This document shows positions 1 through 64,000 of a DNA stretch of 64,000 nucleotides, piece by piece. Within the stretch, counting starts at the first letter, position 1, and every line of letters begins with the position of its first letter. A program made the position numbers and the translations under genes. The notes beneath the pieces were generated by a model. It worked only from the letters and a program-made list of their open reading frames with translations. It was not told the DNA's origin and made no database searches. The DNA comes from Carposina sasakii (taxonomy: Eukaryota; Arthropoda; Insecta; Lepidoptera; Carposinidae). The DNA lies in NCBI GenBank assembly GCA_014607495.2, contig CP053163.1:7296716-7360715 (forward strand), in the 5' to 3' direction.

Positions 1-1776
1 ATAGGCGCACGCACCGTATGCGTTTTGCGACGCATCAGAGAAAATATGTAATTCTCTATAGTTTGTATGTATACCTATGACGTGACGGGGAATTCTTATA
101 TTAGGTAAATACTGAAACGTAGACATGAAGTGACACCACATTGATGCTATATCGGTGGGAACTTCGTCGTCCCAGTCTAGCTTACTGAGCCACAACTTTT
201 GCAACAATATTTTTGATGCAACAATTGCGGGACCTATGAGACCTAGCGGATCATAAATCTGTGATATAACTGATATCATTAAACGTTTAGTTATTTTAGA
301 TTCAGTATTATCTAATTTAGTCGTAAAATGTAACTCATCACAACGATTAGACCAACCTAGACCTAACGTTTTGGACTGACACTGATCACCGATACCTAAA
401 TCTTTTACGCTCTCAGGAGTGACGTCATAATTAAAGATCCACTTTCGCAAGGGCAAGCAACCACTCTGTAACGTTTTGGATGTTTTGTTGCATATGTCAA
501 GTAACCTATTAAGTTGGTCGTCGCCGGTAATCAAATCATCTACGTAAAAATCATCGTTTATTACGCGAGCGATGACGTCATCGTCACATTCATTAGCCAG
601 CTGTTTTAAGCACCGCATACTTAGGTATGGCGCAGACGCCGTGCCATAGGTAACTGTATTTAAACGATAGATATTAAGAGGTTTTTCACAATTCTCCCTC
701 CATAAAACGAGCTGTAAATTCCTCTGGTCTTTTTGTATTAAAATTTGCCTATACATTTTCTCAATGTCTGCACAGGCTACAAACCGATATTGACGAAACC
801 GTAATAATGTAGAAAATATGTCGTTCTGCAAAGGGGGACCAGTGAATTGAATATCATTTAACGATTTATTAGAAGAGGTTGGTTCACTCGCATTAAATAC
901 CACCCGCAACTTAGTTGTGACACTATCTTCGCGATAAACCCCATGATGTGGCAAGAAATAGTGAGGCTTATCTATGTCGCTTATATTATTTGAAATCAAG
1001 GTCATATGACCCAAATCTTCATATTCCCGCATAAAACTCGAATATAAATCTTTATAATTAGGCGAACGATCCAACCTTCGCTCTAGTGATAAAAACCGAC
1101 TCCTAGCTGTATGGTAAGACTCCCCCAAAGAATCAGCTGATTCTTTTAAAGGTATTCTAACCGAAAACCTACCATTTTCAAGGCGTTTAGTAGTTTCCGA
1201 GTATAACGTTTCACAATAACGCTCTTCAGTAGAAAGTGCACGAGGTAAATTAGAAATTTCTTCTATTTCCCAAAACTTTCGCAGTAACGAATCAACCTGA
1301 ACAAGGTTACATTGAACTTCAATGTTTTTAAACGTATATTTCGAATTAATGCAACCGGAAATGATCCAACCTACCTTCGAGTCCTGTAGGTATGGGCCGG
1401 TTCCTAGACGTATCTTATTTTCGTTTAATAAGTCCCAAAAAACGTCAGCGCCTATCAATAAATCTATTTCAGACGAGACGTGGAACGTAGGGTCAGCGAG
1501 TTGAACATGGTTAGGTATACGTATAGCCGCGCGATCTACGTTTATCGAAGGTAGGTTCGAACAGATCCTTGGCAGAACTAAGCACTTCAACTCGGTGTTA
1601 AAATCGTATACTTTAGAACGCATATTAATTTTGCAAGTGTAGGAAGAATGCGATATCGATTGTCCTACACCACTAATACGTATAGTGGACTGTATCTTAG
1701 GTACGTTTAGATGTTTACATAAATTTTCGCTAATAAAACAATTTTGACTGCCGTTATCTAATAAGTGCACGGGCCA
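1..1776 (-). pseudogene. pol: BEL/Pao protease and reverse transcriptase, frame-shifted, 3' end outside window
   Basis: An uninterrupted frame (codons in the phase of base 1) reads from about 1776 to base 1. In order: an aspartic-protease active site LLDNGSQ (1739-1761; DNG where DSG is commoner), the protease flap region with LLIGADVFWDLL (1390-1455), a linker, then reverse transcriptase with VVFNAS (827-844), ADIEKMYRQI (motif A, 742-771), YGTASAPY and YVDDLITG (motif C, 523-546), and finally the first RNase H motif FSDAS at 28-42. No stop interrupts the frame; I translated nearly every line of it. It is joined to gag only after a one-base shift near 1759-1763, so it has no start of its own. 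Family knowledge predicts cleavage of the polyprotein and cDNA synthesis inside virus-like particles. Confidence 0.85.
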
Positions 1777-3319
1777 AATGGTACCTATTGTCTTCGCCGG
1801 CGACTTCGACTAGCGCTGTAGATAACAGAACCGGTTGCGACGTCTTTGCATTTGTTGTGAACGTCAACACATCACAATCAGCTGATTTGCTAATGCAGTG
1901 CAAAGCAGATAATTGGCCTGACGACAATGGAGATGAACCGATGTTATGTGCAGTCGAATCTTGGTGAAGTAACGTATTATGCTTCTTATTGCACAGTTTA
2001 CATGACCCGAAAACACAATCATTAGGATTATGGCCGCTTGAACGTATACAATTAAGACAAAGATTTTTATCTTTAACAAGTTTTAGTCTATCTATAACCG
2101 ACAAGTTAAGAAAATTTGAACATGAGTAAAGAGAATGATTGCCATTGCACAATGGGCAAACACCATTATAGCCTTTATTGTGTTGTTTATTCGCTATGTT
2201 TTTACTACTCGAAGCGGATACATAGCTATATGTTTGTTGATTACTATTAGATCTTTTATACTCATTTGTAAGCTTCGAATCAGAACTTTGCTGTTTTAAA
2301 TGTATTGAATTTTTATTAATATTCGATCTAATCATATCCAACATGTCCGCTTTGTTTCGTAAAAATGTAAATAAATGTTCTAATTTTAAGGTATTTGTAT
2401 CTCCACGTACATCAGAAAGAAGGCTACCTTTATGATTTTCCCAATCACGTTCTGTTGATGGATCGAGCTTGGACACTACGAGATAAATAATTAAGGTATC
2501 CCAGGTGTCGGTAGGTTCATTTAACGATTTAAGTGCGCGAAGGTTACGTAATACGGAATCTATTAGCTTCCTAATTTGAGTAGGAGATTCCTTATTTACT
2601 GACGCAATGGAGAACAAAGACCTCACGTGATTTTGCAACAATAAACGGTTATTCTGAAATCTATTTTCTAATAACTCCCACGCGTGAACATAGTTTAGGG
2701 CTGTAAACTCTAATGAACTGATTACCTGCAATGCAGAACCGCTAAGTGACGATTTTAAATAATGAAATTTTTGAACTGGATCTAAATCTGAACGACTATG
2801 AATCATTGTAACGTATGAATTTTTATACTCAAGCCACTGATCGTATGATCCGTCAAAGGCAGGTAACTTGATTTCCGGTAATTTAATCGACACATGCTTT
2901 TCAGTGTGACAAGGAGATTGAGGATTAGGCTCACCTTTTTCTATTTGGTTTAATATGCACTTCGCGGCAGCCACTGCATTATAGAACTGGCATTCAAACT
3001 GTTCCCTATAGTCTAAATGAGCAAGTAATTCGGATGATTCGACATTTTCCTCGAGTTTACTTTGAATGCAATTAAAATCTTTATAAAAGTCCGTTACGGT
3101 TTGAATTCGTAATTGCAACTGAACTTTTATCATAGCATCTAATTTAGTTTTATCTATGTTAAAAACGTATTTTTCGAATAAAGTTAATCTACTTTTAATA
3201 TTACCGCGTTGCCTTTTGAGCTCACTAAAATCAGACATTTTCGAAACACCAGGCATTGGCGACTTTGACCTTGACCTTTGCGAGTTGTCTGCGGCTAATT
3301 TAAAATCTTCCTCACTCAT
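1754..3319 (-). CDS. gag: BEL/Pao gag polyprotein with zinc knuckles
   Basis: 521 codons from an ATG at 3319. The N-terminus is basic and Ser-rich. It is followed by a long helical capsid-like region (about residues 130-340) of the type found in Pao-family gag (DUF1759-like), including the motif LPAFDGSYDQW near residue 155. Around residues 385-455 are Cys/His clusters (CPLCNGNHSLYSC, CLNCIRSSGHNPNDC, CKLCNKKH) that form nucleic-acid-binding knuckles. The last 25 residues already belong to the protease leader. The frame ends in TAA at 1754-1756, exactly where the protease active-site motif resumes in the next frame, so the natural product is probably a longer gag-pro-pol polyprotein. The role would be assembly of the cytoplasmic particle that packages element RNA. 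Confidence 0.88.
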   Translation of the reverse strand: MSEEDFKLAADNSQRSRSKSPMPGVSKMSDFSELKRQRGNIKSRLTLFEKYVFNIDKTKLDAMIKVQLQLRIQTVTDFYKDFNCIQSKLEENVESSELLAHLDYREQFECQFYNAVAAAKCILNQIEKGEPNPQSPCHTEKHVSIKLPEIKLPAFDGSYDQWLEYKNSYVTMIHSRSDLDPVQKFHYLKSSLSGSALQVISSLEFTALNYVHAWELLENRFQNNRLLLQNHVRSLFSIASVNKESPTQIRKLIDSVLRNLRALKSLNEPTDTWDTLIIYLVVSKLDPSTERDWENHKGSLLSDVRGDTNTLKLEHLFTFLRNKADMLDMIRSNINKNSIHLKQQSSDSKLTNEYKRSNSNQQTYSYVSASSSKNIANKQHNKGYNGVCPLCNGNHSLYSCSNFLNLSVIDRLKLVKDKNLCLNCIRSSGHNPNDCVFGSCKLCNKKHNTLLHQDSTAHNIGSSPLSSGQLSALHCISKSADCDVLTFTTNAKTSQPVLLSTALVEVAGEDNRYHLARALIR

Positions 3320-3616
3320 TTTAGCACTTAAGAGAAGAAAAGAGTACTTACAGTCGTTAGGAAACCTTCAGAAGCCCACGAAAACCACTGGTCGAAGTAC
3401 CCTCGACAAGGTTTCGTGTCGCGTAGATTTTACTGAAATTTAACACACACGGCACTGTATTAACGCAATCGAGGTTGGAAGATGGGAAGGAACAAGGAAG
3501 GATGACCTGACCGTTTCGAATATGCGCCTTCTGCCTTCTTCCTCGAGCTGGACCCTTCGTCGACTTCGGTTGATTTTCGAATTTTGCTCGTATTTTCGCC
3601 GAATCTTCGTATAATC

Positions 3617-5450: not shown

Positions 5451-5622
5451 CTGGGCTGTTAAGGGTTCTGCATCAGGTTATCTAGACCTTCAATTTTATT
5501 ACGTTATTAGAAAGTGCTTATCATGCTGAGCAACTTTTCCTAACAGGGTATTTTCATATCTCTCAAAGTTTAGCTGGGCTGCTAAGGGTTCTGCATCAGG
5601 CAGTCTAGACCTTCAATTTTTT
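5410..5622. repeat. Imperfect direct duplication inside the Helitron
   Basis: About 88 bp starting ACTTTTCCTAA at 5410 recurs from 5533 (offset 123 bp), both units ending near CTAGACCTTCAATTTT. Only a handful of bases differ. Confidence 0.8.
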
Positions 5623-25924: not shown

Positions 25925-26176
25925 TCTATACATATAATAAAAATGTTACGGATCACTGTCTGTACATGGAAGATATATGAGAAAAAATATTATAGACCTT
26001 TATCAACACAATAGTACCGAAAACAATGATTTTTGGAATTTTTGTCTGTTTGTCTGAACGTTTGTACTGTGCATGCTAATCTCAGAAACGGCTTCGATTT
26101 CGATGCAGTTTTCAGGAAAATACTTTATGTATAGGCTACTTTTTATCACGCGGACGGAGTCGCGGGCGCCTACTAG
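25925..26176 (+). mobile_element. Short non-autonomous Helitron
   Basis: Starts TCTATACATATAATAAAAATG directly after TTTA and ends CGGAGTCGCGGGCGCCTACTAG|T with the CG-rich terminal hairpin just before. 252 bp, no coding capacity. It is closely related to the copy at 34803-35127. Confidence 0.8.
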
Positions 26177-27464
26177 TATAAATTAAAATTAGATTTGCTT
26201 GCAGCATGAAAGTCTTAAAATCGTTTTTCGACCGATACGAGAGATATTTTTAAATTTCAAAAATGCTTCTTTTTATCCCCGGTAATGTCAGTCAACCAAC
26301 TAGTTAGTACACATATAAGTACGAGTAGGCCTTAGCCGATGTCGTAGCTTGTCGAATCTCTACGCGGCAGATCGAGCCAAATCGAAGGAAAAAAGCGCAT
26401 ACCGCTAACTGACACAGTGCTTTATTGAGCGCCATTCCGTTGTCGCAACGGTAGAGAAGCGTTCTACTCTGTATAGATGATCGACTAACATACGTAACTT
26501 AAGATTAAATTTTATCCGAAATTTAACACACGTGTTGTCTCGCTTTATATTAATTATTTGAAAATAATGGGCGTGACTATATTATGTAGAAAGATACTGG
26601 CCGCTTTCAACTGGTCGCAATGATAGTGTTTGGATAAGCCCTAGCCCATGTTGATAATGAGATGAGATATCGCGTCGTAGACGTGTAGTATTTTGTGTTA
26701 TAAGGGCATCTACTGATTCGTCCTTGTCTTCATTTGATTCAATTTCATTTTCTTTAATCTTAGTAAAACCTCCTTTTCAAAGTCCCAAAGAGAAAAACAA
26801 ATAAGTAGGTACACCACAAAACGTGATGCTGAAGCTGCTGAGTCTCTTTGAACATTGTGGCGGAGCTGCGTGATGATGAGTGGGAAGTGGATAATAACTT
26901 GCCGCACCTACCACTTGGCAGTTATTGTTTTTAACCTAATTAATTAATAATTGATTCTGTGAAATCTATGGACTAGATCACTAAACAGACAATAATATTA
27001 TTATAAACATAGCCATAAACATAACGCTTTATTTTTCAATCTTATTGCGAATCTTGTGAGAGTATCTCTCATTATTGTTAAGTACATAAGTATGCTACGG
27101 TATATAATAATATGCACTACGTACATATAGGTATATGTAAGCATCCTGTGCTGATGCGGTCTCTAGAAACATAGGCTGCATCTTTTTCCGTACATGTTGT
27201 AAGAGTCGACTAAGGAATTTAAGGGCGTTCTCACAGGCAATGAGCTTGTCATTGATCTTTTGCAAATGTAAAAGATGCTATAATACGAAATATGGCTGTG
27301 AGGTCTCATTTACGATCCTGCGGCTATGGCTTCCCCATTTTGGAAACAGGCGTGTATATTCTAGTGAAACCTGGCATCAACACAGGCAATGTCTTCTATA
27401 CGTTTATTAATCGGTAAAGAAATTGTTTCCATATGTTTCACGCGGTTCTTGATTCCTGCCTATT
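26177..27464. other. Non-coding DNA, no gene seen
   Basis: Short open frames only; nothing recognisable. Confidence 0.45.
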
Positions 27465-28142: not shown

Positions 28143-28386
28143 TATAGAGTGCGTGTGGTATCATTTCAAACTGTGTTGACAGGTAAATACTAACACAACT
28201 TGAGTATTGTCAGTTGTTAGTCAACTTGACACGGAATACTTTGGAAAAGGGTCAAGAATCGAGGCAGGTCGTAATCAAAACATTAGTGCTTAATGCCGTT
28301 GTGCACTGCATCATAATTCGGATAGTGCAATATTCCATAACAAAATAAATGTTAATAAATATAGATAATTATAAGGCTAATATAAT

Positions 28387-28461
28387 AATTTAGAATCAAA
28401 CGAACTTACCTTGTGAAGTTCGAGTTCTAATTATACGAGAATCTCGAACGAAGATGATTAC
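28387..28461. repeat. DIRS right terminal arm
   Basis: 75 bp starting AATTTAGAATCAAACG, perfectly inverted at 28692-28766. Its inner part TAATTATAC...CGAAGATGATTAC resembles the left terminus, which supports a shared inverted terminal repeat with a diverged middle. Confidence 0.85.
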
Positions 28462-28547
28462 ACTCCCACCCAGCCCGTTTTTCCCAGTGTAAAAAAAATA
28501 AAAATAAATAATAATAATAATAATAATAGAAAATACACTCTAAAGAA

Positions 28548-28704
28548 ATGGCGCCACCGAGCGCGTGAGCTGCCTGCTGCCCCGTAGTACAGGTGTGAGT
28601 GAGACAGCGGAATACAGGTTTTTTTTCAGGAATCATATCTTTAAAAGTGTGACAAGGACGGCACCATACTACGTACTGCTGCACGTTATCAGTAATCATC
28701 TTCG
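28548..28704. repeat. DIRS direct repeat A, right copy
   Basis: 157 bp starting ATGGCGCCACCGAGCG and ending GTAATCATCTTCG. It differs from the left-end copy at 33345-33501 at two positions and lies in the same orientation. Confidence 0.9.
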
Positions 28705-28809
28705 TTCGAGATTCTCGTATAATTAGAACTCGAACTTCACAAGGTAAGTTCGTTTGATTCTAAATTATACTTCGCATCTCTCTCGAAGATGATTACTGAT
28801 AACGTGCAG
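28692..28809 (-). repeat. DIRS internal complementary region
   Basis: 28766-28809 is the perfect 44-nt reverse complement of the left terminus (33476-33519). 28692-28766 is the perfect 75-nt reverse complement of the right terminus (28387-28461). The two abut, giving the complement of a right-end-to-left-end circle junction. Confidence 0.88.
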
Positions 28810-28876: not shown

Positions 28877-29923
28877 CTAATCTTCTGGAATAAACAAAGA
28901 ATTTACTATATTTTCGTTATTTGTTTCACATGATAACGTAATATCCCTATTATAGTATTTCATAAATACATTTGAGGAATCAGACCAGCCAGCGGCTTTA
29001 CGAATCACTTCTAAGCTGACGCCAGCACGGCGCGCAGCAGACGTGGATGCATGCCGTGTACTATGGGCGCTAAATATGGTTGTGTCCACTCCACTCAAAG
29101 TGAGGGTATCTTTAACCCAATGAGATAAAGTTTGTGCACCGACACTCTGATGTGGTTTTTTGTAGCTTATAAAAAGCTTACCTGAACTACTGTTACGTAA
29201 ACTATTTGTTTTTCCCAAATAAGCTGTCAAAGCCAAAGCTGGACATATTTTTAAGTTTTCTTTAACATATGGTAGCTTAATAAGTGGTTCGTAAGATCCA
29301 GGTCTGCTTGTTAAATCATCAATTTTAATTAGAATTTGACTATCATGAAAAATAATATTTTGTATTTTTATTAAACTTAATGTTTGCATTCTTTGTGCAG
29401 ACGCGAGAGTAAGTAAAGTCACAGTCTTATATGACAAATCTTTAAGTGATAAATCATCATGAGGGTAGAATCGAGATAAGTAATTGAACACTAATTTTGT
29501 ATCCCAAGTAAATCTATACTTAGGCGTCGGTGGTTTTAGTCTGTAAGCACCTTTTAGAAGTCGATTTACATAGTCATTTGAAGTTATGCATGAGCCTAAT
29601 ATTAGGGAAAGAGCTGATCTAGTGGTATTTAAAGTACTATAACTACATCCTGTATCAAACCTTTCCGTCAGAAAGGAGATTACTTGTGCGACATCAACAT
29701 CAAAATAACTATAATTTTTACTTTGACAATATTCCCACCAAGCTTTAAGCGATGAGCTATAGTGTTGTAAAGTATTTGTAGCTAGCGAAGCCATGAATAG
29801 GTGTATGGAGTTTTCTGGTACGCCTCGCCTCAAGAGTGACTGCCGGATAATTTCACTGCCACCAGGGAAAGTTGTGCATGAAGCGGGTGTACTTCTCTGA
29901 AAGGGGAGTGCAATAAGGAAGCA
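28877..29923 (-). CDS. DIRS tyrosine recombinase
   Basis: The frame is open from 29923 to a stop at 28877 and overlaps the RT-RNase H frame by 94 nt in the -1 phase. No ATG opens it. The conserved family start (PGGSEIIRQSLLRRGVPE) lies in the overlap, so the protein is probably made by frameshift, reinitiation or splicing. An N-terminal core-binding domain (TLQHYSSSLKAWWEYC) is followed by the catalytic domain. The catalytic residues of the tyrosine recombinases are visible: Arg in ASAQRMQTL, His-x-x-Arg in HSTRHAS, the GWS segment, and the nucleophile Tyr in MKYYNR near the C-terminus. The expected job is to insert a circular double-stranded DNA intermediate without target-site duplication. 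The length (about 320-348 residues) is normal for DIRS recombinases. Confidence 0.9.
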   Translation of the reverse strand, partial: CFLIALPFQRSTPASCTTFPGGSEIIRQSLLRRGVPENSIHLFMASLATNTLQHYSSSLKAWWEYCQSKNYSYFDVDVAQVISFLTERFDTGCSYSTLNTTRSALSLILGSCITSNDYVNRLLKGAYRLKPPTPKYRFTWDTKLVFNYLSRFYPHDDLSLKDLSYKTVTLLTLASAQRMQTLSLIKIQNIIFHDSQILIKIDDLTSRPGSYEPLIKLPYVKENLKICPALALTAYLGKTNSLRNSSSGKLFISYKKPHQSVGAQTLSHWVKDTLTLSGVDTTIFSAHSTRHASTSAARRAGVSLEVIRKAAGWSDSSNVFMKYYNRDITLSCETNNENIVNSLFIPED

Positions 29924-31929
29924 TTAGGCGTGAATATTAATTTTTTGGACACCATCATTTTATTGAGTAACGGATACCACGGCTGAGATGGCCAGTTAGG
30001 AACTACCAAAATTCCTTCAGCTTTGTCAGACTTAATCTTTTGGAGAATCTTAGTAATTAAACAAAATGGGGGAAAGGCATAAAATTTTAAATTATTCCAA
30101 TTGAACGTAAACGCATCAACTATTGCCGACCCAGGATCAAGCTTCCACGAGGCATACCGCTCACATTTGTGATTTTGTATGCTAGCGAAGAGATCAAATT
30201 CAGGTCTACCGAAAACCTTGACAATTTTTAAAAATGCGTAGTTTGCAAGCTCCCACTCTGTATCTATGTTCACTAATCGAGACTCGCGATCGGCAATGAT
30301 GTTATCTGTTGACTTTATATAAGATGCGAATACGAAAATGTTTCTATTTTCGCACCATTGCCATAATTCACGTGACAATTTATTTAAATGTGTAATCTGT
30401 ACTCCGCCCATTCGGTTTACGTATGATATAGCCGTAGTATTATCGATACGTAGCAAAATATTACAATCTCTAATATGTGAAGCAAAAATTTTAAGGCCAT
30501 AATAAGCGGCTTTTAGTTCGAGATAGTTGATGTGATTCTCAAGGTCGATGCTACTCCAATTACCGTTCGCGGTGTTACCATCACAATCTACACCCCAGCC
30601 TGAACGTGATGCATCACTGTATATCTCTAAATAGTAATTGTCATTTTGTATATTTGAATAACTTGATTCGATTTTATTAAACCACCATTTTAAATCTGAG
30701 TTAAGATGCTTTCCTAATTTCATTCTTTTATTATAATTATTCGAGTAGTTTAACGCTAAGAACTTTTCTCTTTCAAGTAATTTTGTGTATACCCAACCGT
30801 ATCGAACGGCTGGACATGCTGATGATAGAAGCCCTAAAAACTCAGCAAGCTGTCTAATGGTACATTTACGAATACTAAGAAATTGTTGGGCTTTGTCTTT
30901 GATTCGTAATTTCTTGTCATTTGGTAAAGAAAGTTTCATCTTCAAAGAGTCAAATTCAAACCCCAGAAATGTACATATTTGACTTGGTACCATTTTACTT
31001 TTATTGGTATTTATAATAAAACCTAAGTATTCAAGGAGGACTCTAGTTGTTTCAACGTTTTTTAAGCATTCTTCATATGTTGATCCAATACACAGGAAAT
31101 CATCTAAGTAATTGACGGAAAGTAAGCCTAAAGACCTAAGACGTTGCAAAATAGGTTTCATCAATTTTGTAAATATAAATGGGGCTGTGCAGAGTCCGAA
31201 GGGTAGAACATTAAATTCGTATAATTGGTTATTCCATAGAAAACGTAGCAATTTTCGATCGTCTGGATGGATAGAAAGTAAAAAATAAGCATCCTTCAGA
31301 TCTAAAGTTGTCATAAAACAGTTAGGATGTATCAACTTTAGCGCAGTGCGATAGTCTTCCATTTTAAAATGCTTGAGATATACATACTTATTTAAAGCTT
31401 TAAGATTTAAAATAAAACGATGTGTACCATCAGGTTTAGGTATTGTGAAAATTGGGGAAATAAATTGTCCTTCGCAAGAAATACATTTAGTAATAAAGCC
31501 GGAGTATAAGAGCTCAGCTATGCATTCTTGTATTATGTTAATTTCTAAATCAGTGCGGCACTTATTTTGTGGTAAGCTTAGCTGAACTGGTTCCTCTTTA
31601 AATGGGATTTTATAACCAGAAACCCAAGACAATATTACGGGGTCATCAGTTATTTGTGACCATTGTTCACGAAAATACTGAAGGCGACCTGCTAAGGAAA
31701 TATGTACCTCGGGAATTAATATTTCTTGTAGCTGTGACGCGGTGGTGGTGGCGGCGCTCTCTTGTCGCTGGTTGAGTAGTAATCTCTGTGTGGTTTCCTG
31801 GAAGCTGCTGGTGGCGGCGGCCGACGCGGGGCAGGGTTCGCTCGCGGCTCGGCGGCTGCCCGCGGCGCCCCCCTCACGTTTAAAGCCCCTCGTCGAACTG
31901 CGGGAGCTTGTTGTGGTGGAACCGTTGTA
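29830..31929 (-). CDS. pol: DIRS reverse transcriptase-RNase H
   Basis: Open from 31929 (just after an in-frame TAA at 31930-31932) to TGA at 29830-29832. The first 214 nt overlap the Pro/Arg-rich end of gag in the -1 phase. Reverse-transcriptase motifs are FTIPKPDGTHRFILNLKALN, DLKDAYFLLSIHP, LPFGLCTAPFIFTKLM and NYLDDFLCIG (YLDD catalytic motif). RNase H follows with YSDASRSGWG, YLELKAAYYGL, RIDNTTAISYV and STDNIIADRESR, which together supply the four acidic residues. The C-terminal region with FDLFAS, FYAFPPF and SQPWYPLL is the conserved tail found after RNase H in DIRS pol. There is no ATG at the family start, so translation probably depends on frameshifting from gag. It makes element DNA from RNA. 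Confidence 0.92.
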   Translation of the reverse strand, partial: YNGSTTTSSRSSTRGFKREGGAAGSRRAASEPCPASAAATSSFQETTQRLLLNQRQESAATTTASQLQEILIPEVHISLAGRLQYFREQWSQITDDPVILSWVSGYKIPFKEEPVQLSLPQNKCRTDLEINIIQECIAELLYSGFITKCISCEGQFISPIFTIPKPDGTHRFILNLKALNKYVYLKHFKMEDYRTALKLIHPNCFMTTLDLKDAYFLLSIHPDDRKLLRFLWNNQLYEFNVLPFGLCTAPFIFTKLMKPILQRLRSLGLLSVNYLDDFLCIGSTYEECLKNVETTRVLLEYLGFIINTNKSKMVPSQICTFLGFEFDSLKMKLSLPNDKKLRIKDKAQQFLSIRKCTIRQLAEFLGLLSSACPAVRYGWVYTKLLEREKFLALNYSNNYNKRMKLGKHLNSDLKWWFNKIESSYSNIQNDNYYLEIYSDASRSGWGVDCDGNTANGNWSSIDLENHINYLELKAAYYGLKIFASHIRDCNILLRIDNTTAISYVNRMGGVQITHLNKLSRELWQWCENRNIFVFASYIKSTDNIIADRESRLVNIDTEWELANYAFLKIVKVFGRPEFDLFASIQNHKCERYASWKLDPGSAIVDAFTFNWNNLKFYAFPPFCLITKILQKIKSDKAEGILVVPNWPSQPWYPLLNKMMVSKKLIFTPNASLLHSPFREVHPLHAQLSLVAVKLSGSHS

Positions 31930-33231
31930 TTAGTTTTGGTCTTCTGGCGGTTATCGACCACTGGTGGTGGACGTAATTCCATTCCCGATTTGGAGATTGC
32001 CTTTGACGACTTTAATTGTTCCGCCAAGTCTGACCCAAACAAATATTCGTCGATTTTTGTTTCTTTAATTGTTGTATCTTTCTTCAAGATATTTATAATA
32101 GCATAACGGCGGGACAGAGATTCCTTATAATGATAGTCGCAAAGAAGTTTACCGGCATCGCTCATAGGTTTTAACATATCTTGTGGAACCCCAGAGGACA
32201 AAGCAATATCTATCGATTTACCTAAGGCAGCAAGACAACTTCCAAGTTGATTTTGTCTTGCTTGACTGTATAAATCTTTTTTATGATTTACTTCACTTAG
32301 AGCAGCCTTAATTTCTAAATAAAGTTTTGGCGCCTTTATGTTGGGACAGTTTTCTGGGGGTAAATATGTTTTCATAAGCTCTGTCCTATCGTCTTTTGAA
32401 ATACCATTTAATAAAATATGAGTCCATGCATTCGCTAGTTTTTTGTGCACATTTCCAGCAAATGTTTTTTCCACAGATGGACCACCTAGAATATCTAGCA
32501 GTTGTGGATCAATTTGTTCTTCCTCGGCATTTTCCTCACTATTATCATCCGGTGGCAATTCAAGTTGAATGAGCGCATTATCTGAAAGAGGGTAGTTGCT
32601 TATAATGTGCGCCAGTACGAGTATAATAGATCGCGGTAGGAAGATTGATTAGTGTCGTATACATAAACGTCGTATTTTATAAGAAGTAATTAGGTAGGTA
32701 TATACGTTACATATGTAAGCACAAAAGTTATAAATATATATAACTATAAACCACATTCAATTAGAATGTTCATGATAGGTAGGATCCATTTAGAATCACT
32801 GTATTAAAATAAATATCTACATATCTATATCCATTTAGGATATATAGATGTGTGTGAGGTATAGTAGGTATATCCATATAGGATTACCATGTATGTACGT
32901 TCATTTAGAACGATTACAGTATGAAAGGTATTTCCATTTAGGATAACCAGACGTACTTTTATAGGGTGGGTAGATATATCCATTTAGGATAAATGTTCAA
33001 ATGTAGTTAGACTTGTTTAAATATACCTGGATTGTTTTGCACTTCATTCGGAATTGAATGCAGCGGCGACATATATGAATCGTTGTCCCTATGTTCACTG
33101 TTAGTGTCGGACGAGGACGTGGAGGGTAACCGAGGCCTTGTTCTTTTAACTTTTTTCTCCAATTTTCGTAATTTCTTCATAACATCCTCGTAATTGTCCC
33201 CACTTCTTGAACGTTTTCTATGACGACCCAT
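31716..33231 (-). CDS. gag: DIRS gag, two exons joined across a 445-bp intron
   Basis: Exon 1 runs from the ATG at 33231 to 33027 and exon 2 from 32581 to the TAA at 31716. Joined they give 1071 nt (356 residues) in one frame, phase-1 intron, splitting an Asp codon. The donor is CAG|GTATAT and the acceptor is TACCCTCTTTCAG|AT. The ATG has A at -3 and G at +4. Exon 1 encodes a very basic start (MGRHRKRSRSG) and a short Lys/Leu/Arg helix likely to form a coiled coil. Exon 2 encodes an acidic stretch, a helical domain (about 200 residues), and a Pro/Arg/Ala-rich basic C-terminus suited to nucleic-acid binding. Without splicing exon 2 has no ATG start, which is the main argument for the intron. 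The family resemblance is to DIRS gag by position and composition. Confidence 0.72.
32582..33026 (-). other. Predicted intron of DIRS gag
   Basis: Begins GTATATTT and ends with a strong pyrimidine tract CTACCCTCTTTCAG. Removal restores one reading frame across both exons. The intron contains the palindrome array at 32753-32991. Inferred from sequence only. Confidence 0.65.
32753..32991. repeat. Array of seven small palindromes with loop ATTTA
   Basis: Seven palindromes centre near 32761, 32790, 32835, 32878, 32905, 32938 and 32984. Their cores read TTC-AATTA-GAA, TCC-ATTTA-GAA, TCC-ATTTA-GGA, TCC-ATATA-GGA, TTC-ATTTA-GAA, TCC-ATTTA-GGA and TCC-ATTTA-GGA. Stems are 4-8 bp and differ in their outer bases, yet mostly still pair: ACATTC/GAATGT, TATATCC/GGATATA, CGTTC/GAACG, TATCC/GGATA. 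Spacing is irregular (27-46 bp). The array lies wholly inside the predicted gag intron of the DIRS element. Confidence 0.8.
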
Positions 33232-33344
33232 TATTACGTGTTCACTTAACAGAAAGTTTATAACTATATAGGTAGGTACCTTTATTATGCTGAAAAGAAT
33301 TACGGTTACAACTGCGGGTGACTCGGACGACACAAAAATACGTA

Positions 33345-33501
33345 ATGGCGCCACCGAGCGTGTGAGCTGCCTGCTGCCCCGTAGTACAGGTGTGAGTGAG
33401 ACAGCGGAATACAGGATTTTTTTCAGGAATCATATCTTTAAAAGTGTGACAAGGACGGCACCATACTACGTACTGCTGCACGTTATCAGTAATCATCTTC
33501 G
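33345..33501. repeat. DIRS direct repeat A, left copy
   Basis: The partner of 28548-28704. On the element's sense strand it forms most of the left terminal repeat. It encodes a small ATG-led frame (33242-33496) with CRPC and CLTHTC that stops ten bases before the gag ATG. Confidence 0.9.
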
Positions 33502-33539
33502 AGAGAGATGCGAAGTATAATTAGTTATTAATAAAATTG

Positions 33540-33699: not shown

Positions 33700-33917
33700 T
33701 CGGATACATGGATGGATAGATGGATGGATGTTTGTTACTCTTTCACGTTAAAACGCCTGGAGCGATTTTTATAAAATTTGGTAAGAAGTTAGCTGATACC
33801 CTGGATTAACACATAGGCTAGATACTTTTTATACCAGGAAAATATTTTTATCCCGGATAATATTGACATCTTGTTTTTTCTGCAGTCCACGCGGACGAAG
33901 TCGCGGGCGTCCACTAG
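33700..33917 (+). mobile_element. Non-autonomous Helitron, 5' end unclear
   Basis: Ends GTCCACGCGGACGAAGTCGCGGGCGTCCACTAG|T, the standard terminal hairpin and CTAG. It contains TTTGTTACTCTTTCACG and AACACATAGGC blocks of this group. A (GGAT)n run at 33707-33730 obscures the start. Confidence 0.65.
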
Positions 33918-34070
33918 TTTATTATAAAATAAGTCGCTTCCCGCTGTCGGTCCCTGTGTATGCTTAGATCTTTCAAACTATGCAACGGATTTTGATACGG
34001 TTTTTTTTTAAATAGATAGAGTGATTCAAAAGAAATGTTTTTATATGCCTAACAGTCTCACGTTCTGATA
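33918..34070 (+). repeat. Interspersed repeat (AAGTCGCTTCCCGCTGTC type)
   Basis: AAGTCGCTTCCCGCTGTCGG, then TATGCTTAGATCTTTC and GGATTTTGATACGGTTTTTTTT, then ATAGAGTGATTCAA. I recognise these blocks as a frequent lepidopteran repeat, probably Helitron-related. Its ends are not defined here. Confidence 0.45.
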
Positions 34071-34802: not shown

Positions 34803-35127
34803 TCTATACATATAATAAAAATGTAACGGATCGCTGTCTGTACATGGAAGATATATGAGAAAAAATATTATAAGAGACCTTTATCAACGCAATAGTACAC
34901 AAAACGATGATTTTTGAATTTTTTGTTGTTTGTTTGTGCGTTTGTGCACGCTAATCTCAGAAACGGCTGAACCGATTTCGATGCAGTTTTCAGGAATATA
35001 TTGTGACAGGTCCCACATAACATATAGGCTACTTTTTATCCCGGGATAATGTTTTTATCCCGGATAATTACGATATTTTGTTTTTTTTTCTGTAGTCCAC
35101 GCGGGCGGAGTCGCGGGCGTCCACTAT
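34803..35127 (+). mobile_element. Non-autonomous Helitron
   Basis: Starts TCTATACATATAATAAAAATG and ends GCGGGCGGAGTCGCGGGCGTCCACTAT, where the last base departs from CTAG. The interior is a longer version of the copy at 25925-26176. No coding capacity. Confidence 0.75.
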
Positions 35128-38100
35128 TATCATAATAAATTCAAGCTTTCACTGGACTCCTTTCAGTTGGGCATTAGCTACAATAACTGTGGGTACTATA
35201 TTTAATTAAAAAGTCAAGTATTGGATGAACTGTGTAAAGAGATGATATGCGTGGGGAGTCAGTATCAAGATAAAAGCTGATAGAAAGTATAATATAAGTA
35301 AGGTACGTTAAAAGCGGAATAGTGTTAAACTCAAATCCCTAATTAAAAACAGAATAGAAAAGTTATTGATTAAAAGCGGTCGTGAATATCTACGCAGTGA
35401 CACAAGTAACCGATGACTGCAACTAGCTCGTCTGCGCAAACGTTAAGTAGATGTTCACATCATCGCGCGTTTTACATGATATATGTGCAATGTTACGGTG
35501 GATTACCGGCAACCACGATCTCTGCGATATGGTGGTACAACTGTAATTGCGTTAACGGTACCGCAACTGATAACCCGGCATTTATACGTGCAAATATTTT
35601 CCAGATTGAACTCAAAATCCGCCATTCTTGCGGATAAAACCGTAAGTGTTATCTGAAGTTTTGATCGGCTCGGCAAAGCAATTATTTTCTTAGAATTATA
35701 TGTAGTTGGATCGTTCTTTTCGATTGGAGGTTGTCTTATTTTTGTTTTGGTCAGAGCATGTGCTCCAATCACTTGACTAGTTCAAAACCTTGTAACTTTT
35801 TAGTTTGATACACAACACAGAAAAGCCGTGGGTCAATATGCCTACAATTGATGTATAGTACCAAACTGCAGTACCATAGGGTGACTGTGTTTGGGAAACC
35901 ATAAGTATTCTACCCAAAAGAGGGCTAACACGTGTTAAATACTGAATTATCTTGCTGGCTATGATACATATGCCTCTATTAAAGAATATATCAGCTCTGC
36001 TAAACCTATACGAAAATATTTGCATTTTAAAAATTGACAATGGCTGTATCTGCGTGTGATTTATATAGGAATACTATTCACGTAGGTATACCTATCTACT
36101 TCGTAGACAATTCCACGCGTCTTATAATTACTGTCTCAAACAACCCACTTGTAGTAGACAGGGTAATAACTACTTCTACATCCTTGCATATTATAAGATT
36201 GCTAAAATAATAGAGTATGTTGATTACTTCTATGTCACCTAGGGGTGGTCCCGCCCGTACTGAAGTTTAGAATGTTTGATCATATACTTATGTTATGAAA
36301 TTGATTCTATTTACTTTTGCGTGTAGTTCAAATAACATGCAATCTTTATGGCCACCAATCTAAAAGGTCAATTTTAATATTCTTCTCTAACTTTTCACTT
36401 GAATAATATTCAATAGCTAAAGGTATTTTATAATTTGTCTAAACTCTTTTTGAATTTGAAACCTACCTATGATTGTTTATTATAACCCTTTATGTTTAAC
36501 CTAGCTATTATTTATTATGTTGTATATCTCTATTTTGTTGTGTCTATTATGGGTTAGTCTAGCTGAAAGTCTTTATATATCAAGCTATGCGATCGATTCG
36601 CTAGACAAATTGCGCATTAGAGAGTGTAGAAAAAGCATACAATTTACCTACGTTTAATGAATGGTAATGAAGCCTGAGAGGAATGTGGCGAACGGTGGTC
36701 GAAAGTGGTCTGCCATAGATAGGTTACATGTTTGGCGTAATTTATCGCGCGCCTGGGTGGTGCAGTGCGGATTCCTAGCTCTGGCAAGGTGCAACTTTTC
36801 AAATGTCTACCTTATTCCCACACAGATCATTCTCATCAATAACCATTTGTTTATTACGACTGAAACTAATCTATTTATCCGATTGAAATTACAATTCTGA
36901 TTTCACTCATGATTGATTAGGCCCGAGGTTAATCTGTATCGGTACATTATAGTACATTACGACCGTTAAAAAATGCCTCATCATTATTTTTCTGCTCACA
37001 TCGGTTCAGTTACGCGCTCTATTCATCTCGGCTCAATTTGGCGGCAAAATGCCCCGGCCCAAGCGTGTGCTGAGAAAAATCACTGTCATAATATAATATA
37101 CTCGGCGCCGATTTAATTTCACTTTCAATTATATTTTAATGAATAGAGAGGTCAGGTTACACTAAACTTTCGCCCGCGGCGTCTAATATAATAGCGTTCA
37201 ATGTTACAAAATGCAAACCTCAATTCGCTAATATGATATCATCGTTTGTTATTTTGATATTATTTAACGTTTGTTGTGACTTGTTTCAGGTATGTTGGCG
37301 CAGATAATAATGTATAGGTTATTGAAGAAGATGTATAGAAGGTACGTCCTTTTTCTCATGTTGTCGTCTTTGCATCGTGTCTTTTATCTTGAAGCCACCC
37401 TCTGTTAAGGCTGTAGGCAAGTGCTTGGAGACACTTGAGGATTGGAGTATGAGTAAACGACTATGCATAACAGATAACTAGTATTTTCCTACCTTTGGTG
37501 AGAAGCATTCGACTTCTAACGGAAGGACTGGACCTTACGGACCGGTTATAGGGAAGAGTGGAGAGAGGAATGAAAAGATCTTTCGATATGACAATAAAAC
37601 CTTTATCATGTAGTGAATTTACACAATCAATGGCAGTGACAAAAGTGAAATCAAAGTAAAGAAAACTGCAGTTCTGAATGTCGAATGTGTTTTTATAGAC
37701 GCACGAGAAAAGTTATAAAAAATTACACATATGTTAAAATTGTCGGACTTTCTCAAATAACATCTCCACAAAGCCCATCATGCGTTGTCCGTAACAATAG
37801 CAGTGTTTCTCATGAATAGAGAAATTAGATTGACAGTAGGGTCAGGAGGCATTCAAAATCGGCATTTTGATGCAATAATGATTTTGATACTTTCACTAAA
37901 TTTATCATTGTAGAATAGCATGCAAATTGATTTAGATAAGCATATTTTTTAGCTTATTGCTTATATGATGATAGTATTGTTGCGAAACAATACGCACTTA
38001 GGTTTATTAATATCCGCTATGTAAGTATACATAAGCAGATCAACAGATTTCATATATTTACTCATACTTTTATGTAGGTACGTTTATTATTTTGTGTTGA

Positions 38101-51362: not shown

Positions 51363-53287
51363 TCATTCAAGCACCTTGTGGTAAACGACATTCTTTGTTT
51401 TTTGGTCAGGCGCAAGAACAAATAAAGCGGATGGTTTGCTGACACGTGAGCATGCCGCGTACAATTGACCATGAGAAAAACATGCATTTTCTAGATTGAG
51501 GCCACAAATAGTCAAGGATTGGCCCTGTGATTTGTTGATCGTCATGGCGAAGCCAAGACGAATCGGGAATTGAATTTGTTTAAACTCAAAGAGAATATCC
51601 GTTGGGATCATCGGAATCCTTGGAATAAGAACTTCCTCATCTTTAAATTTTCCTTTAAGTATCGACGCGTGAATCACATTGCTCATCAGTTTTTTTATCA
51701 CCAAATGCGTTCCATTGCACAGTTTTGGTTGGTTTAAATTTCTAAGCATGATAACTACCGAGCCAACCTTCAGTTGTAAATTGTGCGGTGGTAAACCAGG
51801 CACATCCAAGGAGTTTAAAAATTCAGTTGGATAATTAGTGGCTTCTTCTTCGTTTGTTACACAGTCGATAGATTTGAATGAATACAGAGTACCTACGATT
51901 TGATTTTGAATTATAAAACTGAGGTCATCTACATCTTTATTTTTAACGGCCAAAATTGCTCGCTCACTTAACCATTTAGTATTTTTGTGGTTTGTTTGTG
52001 TTTGTCGGAAATCGCCAGATATTTTATACATCATCATTTTGATATTAAAGTGATATCCATCGTCTCCTTGCCAAAACATCAGCGGGTATTGTAACGCGTC
52101 ATATGAACGGTGTGTTTCATATATTCTTTGTAGTTGCCCAGTATTGCGTCGTGTAAGTACAGTATCACGTGTTTCCAAGTTTTCACCAACAATCAGGATT
52201 GCCACTTCATCGATTGTTGGAGCATTAAATGTGCGTTCATGTGTTGCAGCTGGTCTTTTATCTGCTCTGATCACAACTTTATAGTCATCACTTGGCATGC
52301 GCTCTAAAGCAGTCTTGAACAACCTGACCAATGCATGATGTTCATGAAGCATTTGCTGCAGATCTTGGAGAATTGCTCTTTTCGTAGCTGTGTTGATACC
52401 TTGACGCCGGTCAAGTTGTTCTTCCATATTGCCCATGAAATATATTTGCAAGAATTTATGCTGTGCATCTTCAATAGGTTGCAATGATCCTATGCGATGG
52501 CAAATCTGGCCTTGAATCTGTAAAGTCGAAGTCATAGTTATAGTCAGATTTACAAACACTTTTTTTTTCAAATAATAACATGCCATTTTTATTTCAGAGA
52601 CAAATACAGAAATCTAACAAACTACATTCCAGATTTTTTTTTACAATCATAGAAAATAAAGGTTTTAACGTAAATTACCTTAAATGTCGGATTATATTGG
52701 TGTTCTTCGATAATTTCCGCCCCAAATGAAGTCATTTGGAAACAGACATTGTATTTTTGAGTGTTCGCTAGAAAATGTCGTGATTCTTGTGTTTCGCCAT
52801 AAAGCAGGGAGCACAATGGCTCTGGTGGCGGGACCAATAATGGCAATTTCACTTTACCACTAAGGCAGCACAAACCAGGCGTTTCACCAGCAAACTTCAA
52901 TGCGCCACAATGCTGGTAAACAACGTCCATTGGACCAATGCAAACTAAACGATGCAAGCTGTAGTCGATGGTGCAATCATATAGAAACGCTGCTCGATTC
53001 AAATCAATACTTGAACCATTTCTTCTTGCACTTCGAAGATTATTCCTCTGTTCATCTGTACGATAAGCTCGACAATTTCTCGTTTCCAACCTAGCCGTTT
53101 CCCGGGCTGCCTCTCTTTGCTCTTGTGTTTGAGAAGCACGAATTAAGGCCCTTCTTTGCTCCATACTAACGCGGCGCTCTTCTCGTGCAATTTCTCGTTC
53201 TTCATCAGATAATTGACTCGCGATATTCCGTTGCCTAATTGCATTACGGCTCCGCTGGGAAAGATTAGATCTTCTAGGACGCGGCAT
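51363..53287 (-). CDS. Helitron Rep-helicase, internally deleted, two exons
   Basis: Exon 1 runs from the ATG at 53287 (MPRPRRSNLSQRSRN) to 52679, and exon 2 from 52517 to the stop at 51363. Together they give 587 residues in one frame. Exon 1 holds a charged Arg/Glu coiled region and the conserved Helitron N-terminal block (ALKFAGETPGLCCLSGKVKL, FQMTSFGAE). Exon 2 continues it (GQICHRIGSL, FLQIYFMGN, LERMPSDDYKVVIRADK, YDALQYPLMFWQGDDGYHF). It then jumps to GDFRQ, a remnant of helicase motif III, and the helicase C-terminus ([44 protein letters not shown]). The HUH and Tyr nuclease motifs and the Walker A and B motifs are missing, about 800 residues by family length. It therefore cannot be catalytically active, though its frame is intact. 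Confidence 0.8.
52518..52678 (-). other. Predicted intron in the Helitron gene
   Basis: AAG|GTAATT ... TTTACAG|ATT, 161 bp, phase 0. The conserved Helitron protein block runs NPTFK then IQGQICHRIGS across the junction with no residues missing, while the intron itself contains stops. Predicted from sequence alone. Confidence 0.75.
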
Positions 53288-62701: not shown

Positions 62702-64000
62702 TTATTTATTTATTCTAGCCAATGAGTTTAATAGCGGAGACGAAAATTCAACCTGTTCATTTAAAAGGTTTACACCAGAATATTTGGCTTTCAAAATCTC
62801 CAACTGTTCCAAAATAGATAGACGAATGCCCTTTTCACACGTATACAGACTAACAAAACTGTGGTCATCTGGAATTTTATGATTTGAAACTAACAAGTGT
62901 TTGGCAAAATGTGATTTTTCAGGGAAATTGTTCCTATAAGCTGCCAAATGTTCTTGGTATCTAATCTTGAAGTTACGACCCGTTTGACCTATATAAACAG
63001 AATTACAGTCAGGACAGTGCAAGCTATAAACTCCTGATTTTTTATCAATTGGTAATATTTGTTTTGTGTTAATTAATCTATTTAAAGAATTAAAAGTCTT
63101 AAAAGCCACCAAGATGTTTTGTTTTTTCAATGATTATGCAATCATCTCTGAGATATAGCCAAAATATGGTAAACTACCAGTGTAAATATTTGTAATCTCC
63201 TCTATTTTTGGGTACAACATTTGTTTAACTAAAATGTTTTTCTTTTTATCAATTAGGTTATAAATTAGTTGTGAACTATATCCATTTGATCTGGCTATTT
63301 GTATAATAGTATTTATTTCTTTAACATAATTAAAGTTATTAAGCGGTAACGTTACTAACCTGTGTATCATTGATTTGTATGCCGCAAGCTTATGTTGCCA
63401 TGGATGGAAAGAATCAATTGGAATAGTTACATCTGTATGTGTTGGTTTCCGTTAAACTGAAAAATCATGATAATCTCCCAATCTAGTAATAGTTACATCT
63501 AAAAAATTTATACTATTGTTTATTTCTTGTTCTATTTTAAATTTAATCTTAGGATGTTTTGTGTTAAGGACGTTAACAAAAAGATGAAACTGCCTAACTG
63601 TGCCTGTCCAACATAAGATGATATCATCAACATATCTAAAATAATATTTTATATGATTATTACTATTAACAATATATTCATTTTCAAACCAATCCATAAA
63701 TATATCGGCTAAAAGAGGTGAAAGCGGAGAACCCATAGTAAGACCATCCTTTTGTATGTAATATGTATTATTATAGCAGAAATAATTCTGGCTCATACAA
63801 AGTCTAGTTAAGGTAATAAGATTATCTGCCTCCATTGGATTTAGTTTAACTTTTTCACACCAAGTTTTAATAATATTTAAACATTCCTTGTAAGGAACAT
63901 TTGTAAACAAACTCTCAACATCTAAAGAAAATAATTTGGAATTTGTTGATAATTTAATATTTTTAATTTTATCTATTAAATTTAGACTATTATTGACACT
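62702..64000 (-). pseudogene. Penelope-like RT-endonuclease with two in-frame stops
   Basis: A single frame runs from the window edge to 62702. Reverse-transcriptase motifs include SLDVESLFTNVPY, LTMGSPLSPLLADIFM and FRYVDDIILCW (YVDD). TAA at 63452-63454 and again at 63134-63136 interrupt the frame, yet similarity continues in the same phase after each (RKPTHTDVTIPIDS, then KKQNILVAFKTFN). The C-terminal GIY-YIG nuclease follows: GVYSLHCPDCNSVYIGQTGR with the CxxC pair typical of endonuclease-positive elements, Arg in FKIRYQEH, Glu in ILEQLE and Asn in VNLLNEQ. In the family the nuclease nicks target DNA to prime reverse transcription. Only nonsense changes are seen, with no frameshifts, so decay is moderate. 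Confidence 0.88.

Follow-up and report, generated by a model that had tools for sequence, protein, structure and literature searches.

Structure of the element and of the array in its gag intron

The window analyzed in this work, a stretch of 64,000 nucleotides (nt) from the lepidopteran Carposina sasakii (GenBank assembly GCA_014607495.2, contig CP053163.1, positions 7,296,716 to 7,360,715), carries on its minus strand a nearly complete DIRS-type retrotransposon, and the predicted intron of its gag gene holds an array of seven short hairpins (32753-32991). Open reading frames (ORFs) for a reverse transcriptase (RT) and a tyrosine recombinase, along with inverted terminal repeats and an internal complementary region, place it among the DIRS1-like tyrosine-recombinase retrotransposons. 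It can be likened to DIRS-1 of Dictyostelium (PMC5633606), with the difference that we saw no hairpin array described for such elements. The repeats consist of a 77-nt inverted pair (28385-28461/28692-28768, 100% identity), a 47-nt inverted pair (28763-28809/33476-33522, 100%) and a direct repeat (28547-28712/33344-33509, 97%). The features of the element are:

28385..28809, no strand: 3'-side terminal repeat and internal complementary region, defined by repeat pairs
28877..29833, minus strand: tyrosine recombinase ORF (Phage_integrase, E 1.6e-12, above the cut-off)
29830..31632, minus strand: reverse transcriptase ORF (RVT_1, E 9.9e-25, above the cut-off)
31716..32581, minus strand: gag exon 2, in frame with exon 1
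32582..33026, minus strand: predicted gag intron, 445 nt, phase 1 (GT 33026-33025, AG 32583-32582)
33027..33231, minus strand: gag exon 1, 68 codons, basic (24% lysine plus arginine, K+R)
33344..33522, no strand: 5'-side terminal repeat region, defined by repeat pairs

An earlier note, made from the sequence alone, had placed the array inside the gag intron of a DIRS element, and the GT-AG borders, the phase and the reading frame across the exons, together with the RT and recombinase ORFs, bear this out. The peptide encoded by exon 1 is similar to the N-termini of gag proteins annotated in other Lepidoptera, which run on into the exon-2 region; 14 of the 36 gag homologues carry a source name, and all 14 belong to Lepidoptera (among them Pectinophora, Ostrinia, Choristoneura, Aricia and Helicoverpa). 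A CTAAT word some 70 nt upstream of the 3' splice site is branch-point-like. The RT ORF also shows a weak match to a Dam-type methyltransferase domain (PF05869, 16.7 bits against a cut-off of 28.1). No relatives of the element were found in collections of viral and prokaryote contigs.

The seven palindromes listed in the earlier note are all there, with the plus-strand loop ATTTA in five, AATTA in one and ATATA in one; in gag sense the loops read UAAAU, once UAUAU and once UAAUU. All lie on the minus strand and are given here in gag sense:

32753..32769, minus strand: unit 1, ACAUUC-UAAUU-GAAUGU; last in gag sense
32783..32797, minus strand: unit 2, GAUUC-UAAAU-GGAUC; one U-G pair
32826..32844, minus strand: unit 3, UAUAUCC-UAAAU-GGAUAUA; imperfect pairing extends to 32819-32851
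32867..32888, minus strand: unit 4, core AUCC-UAUAU-GGAU at 32872-32884; outer GGUA/UACC pairs past a one-base bulge
32898..32912, minus strand: unit 5, CGUUC-UAAAU-GAACG
32927..32948, minus strand: unit 6, core UCC-UAAAU-GGA at 32933-32943; outer GGU/ACC pairs past an internal loop
32977..32991, minus strand: unit 7, UAUCC-UAAAU-GGAUA; first in gag sense

Exact matches to TYCATTTAGRA occur at five sites in the window, all within the array, and with one mismatch allowed the number rises to 16, where 9.5 would be expected (a count as high was reached in 5 of 100 shuffles); seven of the 16 are in the array. By a crude rule for generic palindromes with 5-nt loops, four were counted in the array against a shuffle mean of 1.9, a value reached in 656 of 5000 shuffles. 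Since such palindromes are common in A+T-rich DNA, the evidence resides in the shared loop and the paired changes rather than in the palindromes as such. When the seven units were aligned without gaps, covariation was 0.429 against a shuffled mean of 0.173 (2/500 as high), and between 0 and 0.238 when partners were slid. The earlier claim of paired stem changes holds for three of the six pairs, which change on both sides, while the single mismatch it reported turns out to be the U-G pair of unit 2 in gag sense. Two inner pairs are invariant and the outermost is formed in two of the seven units; seven related units alone are thin evidence for covariation. The sense strand, folded at minimum energy, shows all seven (z -3.0, 1/200 shuffles as low), and the opposite strand folds equally well (z -3.1, 0/200), without unit 2 and with unit 7 paired differently. 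The window gave no match to Rfam at the gathering score.

Two other origins were considered and rejected. Tandem Repeats Finder reported no array over 32753-32991, just a short one at 32729-32748, in agreement with the initial view that this is not a simple tandem repeat. Neither is it a host satellite or dispersed host repeat: in a search that skips very common words, the intron was matched at three places in the genome, all of them DIRS copies. The 14-mer TATCCATTTAGGAT of the unit occurs 16 times in 399 Mb, of which six are in the three copies and one in the gag intron of another DIRS family (L042), and the remaining nine equal the control count of nine. The array is retained in all three matches, thus also in the two copies outside the window, and their introns are 99.6-99.8% identical. 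Over 2.4 kb the copies share 99.6% identity with the window, which makes them recent copies that kept the intron, and they are too alike for covariation to be read among them.

Hairpin arrays in other DIRS families of the genome

The covariation test suggested in the earlier note, uninformative with copies of the same element, was fruitful with other DIRS families, where paralogous units whose loops are conserved and whose stems vary amount to a natural covariation experiment. A search of the same genome with the RT gave 73 scored matches out of 2186 first-look candidates, with identities down to 48%; the genome is rich in DIRS families and most of the 73 scored frames have no internal stop. 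We took 5' stretches of 4.3 kb for 30 loci, 801-base slices for 20 more and 1.5-kb flanks for 7 others. Among the window and these 57 loci (L027-L083), 36 gag introns, the window's included, were delimited by eye, the remaining loci being 19 near-copies and three in which no intron was found over its length (L027, L039, L069). Counts below use 34 introns, with L036 and L041 omitted as near-copies.

The exon-1 ORF ends in phase 1 in 31 of the 36 cases (phase 0 in L057; L029, L030, L031 and L080 were unreadable in the stretch), and because this phase is so widely shared the gag intron is probably old in the DIRS families of this genome. Exon-1 ORFs are basic (20-47% K+R) in 32 of the 36, the other four being unreadable. 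At 56 of 59 loci a match covers at least 0.91 of an intron: 35 of these loci are the delimited ones and 21 are further copies, all of which (21/21) keep at least 0.91 of the family intron; no exon fusion was seen among the 59 loci.

Many of these introns carry an array of their own, with a common loop, variable paired stems and sense orientation. In sense RNA, the loop UAWWU closed by C-G is found in the window, L034 and L042, UAUAU closed by G-C in L034, L042 and L043, and UAUCUU in the L037 group. The most widespread class is C-YGNRR-G (for instance GAC-UGCGA-GUC, AAC-CGUGA-GUU or UUC-UGUGG-GAG), and A-CGNGA-U is found in L055, L057 and L081. L080, L050 and L074 have two-tiered units, in which an outer stem (such as AUGC/GCAU) and an internal loop enclose an inner pentaloop hairpin; over 11 such units, 8 of 10 predicted pairs show two-sided change, and the outer stem varies too. 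In a gag tree of 21 rows, the window, L036 and L043, with U loops, form one clade (100/98) with two UAUCUU rows, and YGNRR loops are scattered over the remaining rows. The number of UAUCUU-loop units GGGTACCTATCTTGGACCC varies among close copies (one in L040, two in L037 and L038, three in L041), and arrays seem to grow and shrink through local duplication. The introns of L033, L064, L066, L068, L073 and L077 have longer repeated units, GTGATGCGTACTGC...GGCTAATACTGTCAC, with outer GUGA/UCAC pairing, that fall outside these loop classes. When eight other loci were compared with Rfam, three matches were obtained, all below the gathering score and none in the gag intron.

Loop sharing was scored with hairpins with a stem of at least 5 and loops of 5 or 6, lengths fixed after looking, that differ by at most one base. 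At least two loop-sharing hairpins were present in 16 of 34 sense introns and at least three in 8 of 34, with 13 and 4, respectively, for antisense introns; shuffled introns gave a mean of 1.86 and a maximum of 5. In exon 2 the figures were 0/25 sense and 1/25 antisense, and the same in upstream stretches. Introns as a whole fold much better than their shuffles (mean z -2.6, n=34), compared with -0.15 to -0.61 for exon 2 and upstream stretches (n=25 each). Generic hairpins with a stem score of at least 6 are also in excess (111 vs 62.6 in shuffles), a noisy measure in A+T-rich DNA.

Sites were also chosen by loop alone. C-YGNRR-G gave 47 sites in 16 of the 34 sense introns (3.66 per kb), of which 33 have stems of at least 4 pairs. 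The antisense introns have three sites, none with such a stem, and in controls the proportions were 0/34 and 3/57 for exon 2 and RT and 3/35 and 1/46 upstream; over the whole window, CYGNRRG is at chance level (90 vs 85.5). The other classes behave alike: at least 4 pairs are formed in 9 of 11 C-TAWWT-G sites (three introns), 6 of 7 G-TATAT-C sites and 8 of 14 A-CGNGA-T sites, compared with none of 4, 4 and 3 antisense sites. The patterns were selected by eye once the introns had been read, which makes their density in the introns a description only; this circularity does not extend to stem pairing. Among 75 distinct loop-chosen units from 24 introns, 290 of 375 positions are paired when each unit keeps its own arms, more than in any of 2000 permutations of arms within introns (mean 243.7, maximum 265). 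In an alignment of 20 chosen units from eight introns (A2), all eight pairs show two-sided changes, covariation is 0.911 against 0.233 (0/500 as high; 0.12-0.25 when slid) and 84.4% of cells are paired against 48.6%. A2 retains 20 of 27 loop-pattern sites, after removal of three identical repeats and four stemless sites (L054 at 333, L055 at 171, L058 at 174 and 518), and dropping the latter makes it lean towards pairing; the 75-unit permutation count keeps such sites.

A model built on 20 units from the first batch of loci (R1) was then run over all 20 loci of the second (16,020 bases, both strands). With E up to 1 it found 20 matches, 17 of them below 0.06, in 8 of the 20 loci, with none in the other 12; by coordinates read by hand, all 20 are intronic and on the sense strand. 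Fourteen fall in families not used in training (L071, L072, L075, L080, L081) and six in copies of the trained L058 family. The test is held-out rather than blind, as the second batch had been read before R1 was built. On 26 other loci (115 kb) R1 gave four matches, all in copies of trained families, and none in the window, whose loop class it therefore does not cover. A model of the window's seven units (R2) recovered these (E up to 0.015), followed by five weak matches in the window (0.88-2.9). On 35 loci it gave seven matches at E up to 5, in the sense introns of L035, L036 and L034 (0.065-0.16) and L042 (1.2), and elsewhere in L053 (0.77), L033 and L056, which is weak support for the presence of the window's loop class in relatives.

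A possible role for the array and its alternatives

The earlier note suggested selection on pairing, and the results with other families (A2, permutations, R1 and loop sharing) support this: the array very probably consists of selected hairpins in sense RNA. As to its alternative between RNA hairpins and DNA sites, the former are moderately favoured by the sequence patterns, because the loops are asymmetric and oriented (47 sense vs 3 antisense C-YGNRR-G sites in introns), because the loop is kept while the arms vary, and because G-U exceeds A-C. At stem positions 2-6, non-Watson-Crick combinations on the sense strand are 26 G-U and 7 A-C (44.9 and 26.4 in permutations), and generic hairpins give 43 G-U and 27 A-C (35.2 and 35.4 in shuffles). 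Choosing the strand by folding energy was tried and discarded, the strands being alike.

The explanation we prefer builds on the place of the hairpins within an intron of the sense RNA made by the element itself: an element-encoded protein would bind several of their loops as long as the intron is present, the likeliest binder being Gag, possibly through its basic exon-1 part. The array leaves with the intron during splicing and is thus confined to unspliced RNA. Since the intron is retained in new copies, the template must be RNA from which it has not been removed, whereas gag needs it removed. The array would thereby keep genomic RNA unspliced or exported, and tagged RNA would be brought to Gag for packaging and reverse transcription, spliced RNA being left to make Gag. 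That the array tags unspliced genomic RNA for a protein of the element seems about evenly balanced, and to the explanation as a whole, in which we infer both binder and function, we assign a probability of about 0.5. In retroviruses the psi hairpins lie behind the splice donor and are carried by unspliced RNA only. The array resembles psi in its position past the 5' splice site, with all of it falling within the predicted intron; it differs in consisting of many copies of one kind of hairpin, in a true intron and with family-specific loops. Gag binding and a need in packaging, which mark psi, are for the array part of the proposal. We found no answer to how DIRS elements choose the RNA to copy, or why the intron is kept through the RNA cycle; the array suggests an unnoticed signal for handling unspliced RNA, and, should the proposal hold, a selfish element would be marking the identity of its genome by means of an intron.

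Several observations weigh against this proposal. All the DNA comes from one genome, 18 of the 34 introns lack a loop-sharing hairpin pair by the rule used, and no array is visible by eye in the gag introns of L045 and L046 (428 nt). The G-U excess has p = 0.0013 uncorrected and only 0.041 after correction for composition, and sense introns fold no better than antisense ones (mean z -2.59 vs -2.66, lower in 14 of 34). Recent copies have four substitutions at 482 stem positions, two keeping and two breaking the pair, none at 204 loop positions and 40 at 5598 others, so no constraint on stems is apparent, which is what dead copies would show. The structure model of Gag (predicted local distance difference test, pLDDT, 58) is too poor to judge RNA binding.

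The strongest rival is a splicing switch with no part in packaging, in which the hairpins would shape the intron or bind a host or element protein, slow splicing and so set the ratio of spliced to unspliced RNA. The element requires both RNAs, and the array is situated downstream of the 5' splice site and upstream of the branch-point-like word; the 49 units of 17 closed introns whose stems have at least 4 pairs all begin 40 nt or further from the 5' splice site and keep at least 35 nt from the 3' one. A general folding effect would need no shared, oriented loop, however, and the loops point to a specific reader. We regard such a switch as possible, if somewhat doubtful, and it could form one process with the tag. 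Other roles in the unspliced transcript, such as one in RNA stability, in processing into small RNAs or in translating exon 1 into its peptide, would fit the structural results equally, since these concern location and structure. Nothing specific was found that speaks for or against them, although at 4-9 pairs the stems seem rather short for Dicer; we consider this group of roles unlikely.

If the array were instead a set of DNA sites for a dimeric protein (the element's recombinase, Gag or a host factor), it might act as an enhancer or insulator near the 5' end. The gypsy insulator, made of Su(Hw) sites of fixed DNA sequence, is comparable in that its short sites form an irregular array close to the 5' end of a retroelement of insects, and the equal folding of both strands is compatible with dyads. 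However, a dimer site keeps its arms and frees its centre, while in the DIRS introns the centre is conserved and oriented with the transcript and the arms vary in pairs; this, the G-U bias on the sense strand and the location of the array away from the recombination ends make DNA sites improbable. Little credit is also given to a neutral origin, in which a local repeat would spread by duplication and template switching would make and mend palindromes, producing paired changes at a single stroke and without selection. One report describes template switching as able to generate hairpins and preserve them (PMC8794818), and the GGGTACCTATCTTGGACCC unit does differ in number among near-identical copies. 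Against this, palindromes without selection have no reason to keep a loop, the loop classes and their orientation recur in families 50-66% identical to the window's in RT, and the arrays are always intronic, absent from exon 2 and upstream sense stretches.

A more tentative extension of the tag proposal is that the ancestral gag intron of lepidopteran DIRS elements might serve self-recognition, with a family-specific loop read by the family's own protein; we find this rather unlikely as it stands. The reader could be the basic exon-1 peptide, encodable by unspliced RNA alone, by analogy with lambda boxB, where a short stem with a five-base loop and GNRA-like fold (GNRNA loop) is read by the arginine-rich N peptide (PMC12027372). 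Short stems and five-base loops are common to both, many DIRS loops are YGNRA and exon 1 encodes a basic, helix-like peptide. The DIRS loops are not GNRNA pentaloops: GNR comes one base later in the YGNRR loops of other families, and the window's UAAAU, UAUAU and UAAUU have no GNRA; moreover, phage and insect element are not kin. If self-recognition were true, family-specific loops would stop the machinery of one element from copying the RNA of another and would explain intron retention. The arrays offer pairs of protein and RNA that can be tested, one for each family and all in a single genome.

The earlier note knew of no DIRS feature of this type, and none was found in the literature searched, most subscription papers and Repbase lying outside the search; in the main text of a DIRS overview (PMC3266345) the strings intron, splic, palindrom and hairpin do not occur.

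Repeats and mobile-element remains around the element

On either side of the element, the window contains a dispersed repeat whose ends are CACGCGGACGAAGTCGCGGGCG-like (26000-26190, 33823-33930 and 34881-35140). Remains of other mobile elements lie on the minus strand at 1754-3367, 51363-52613 and 62702-63133, with DUF1759, a Pif1 2B domain and a GIY-YIG match that is weak and falls slightly short of the cut-off.
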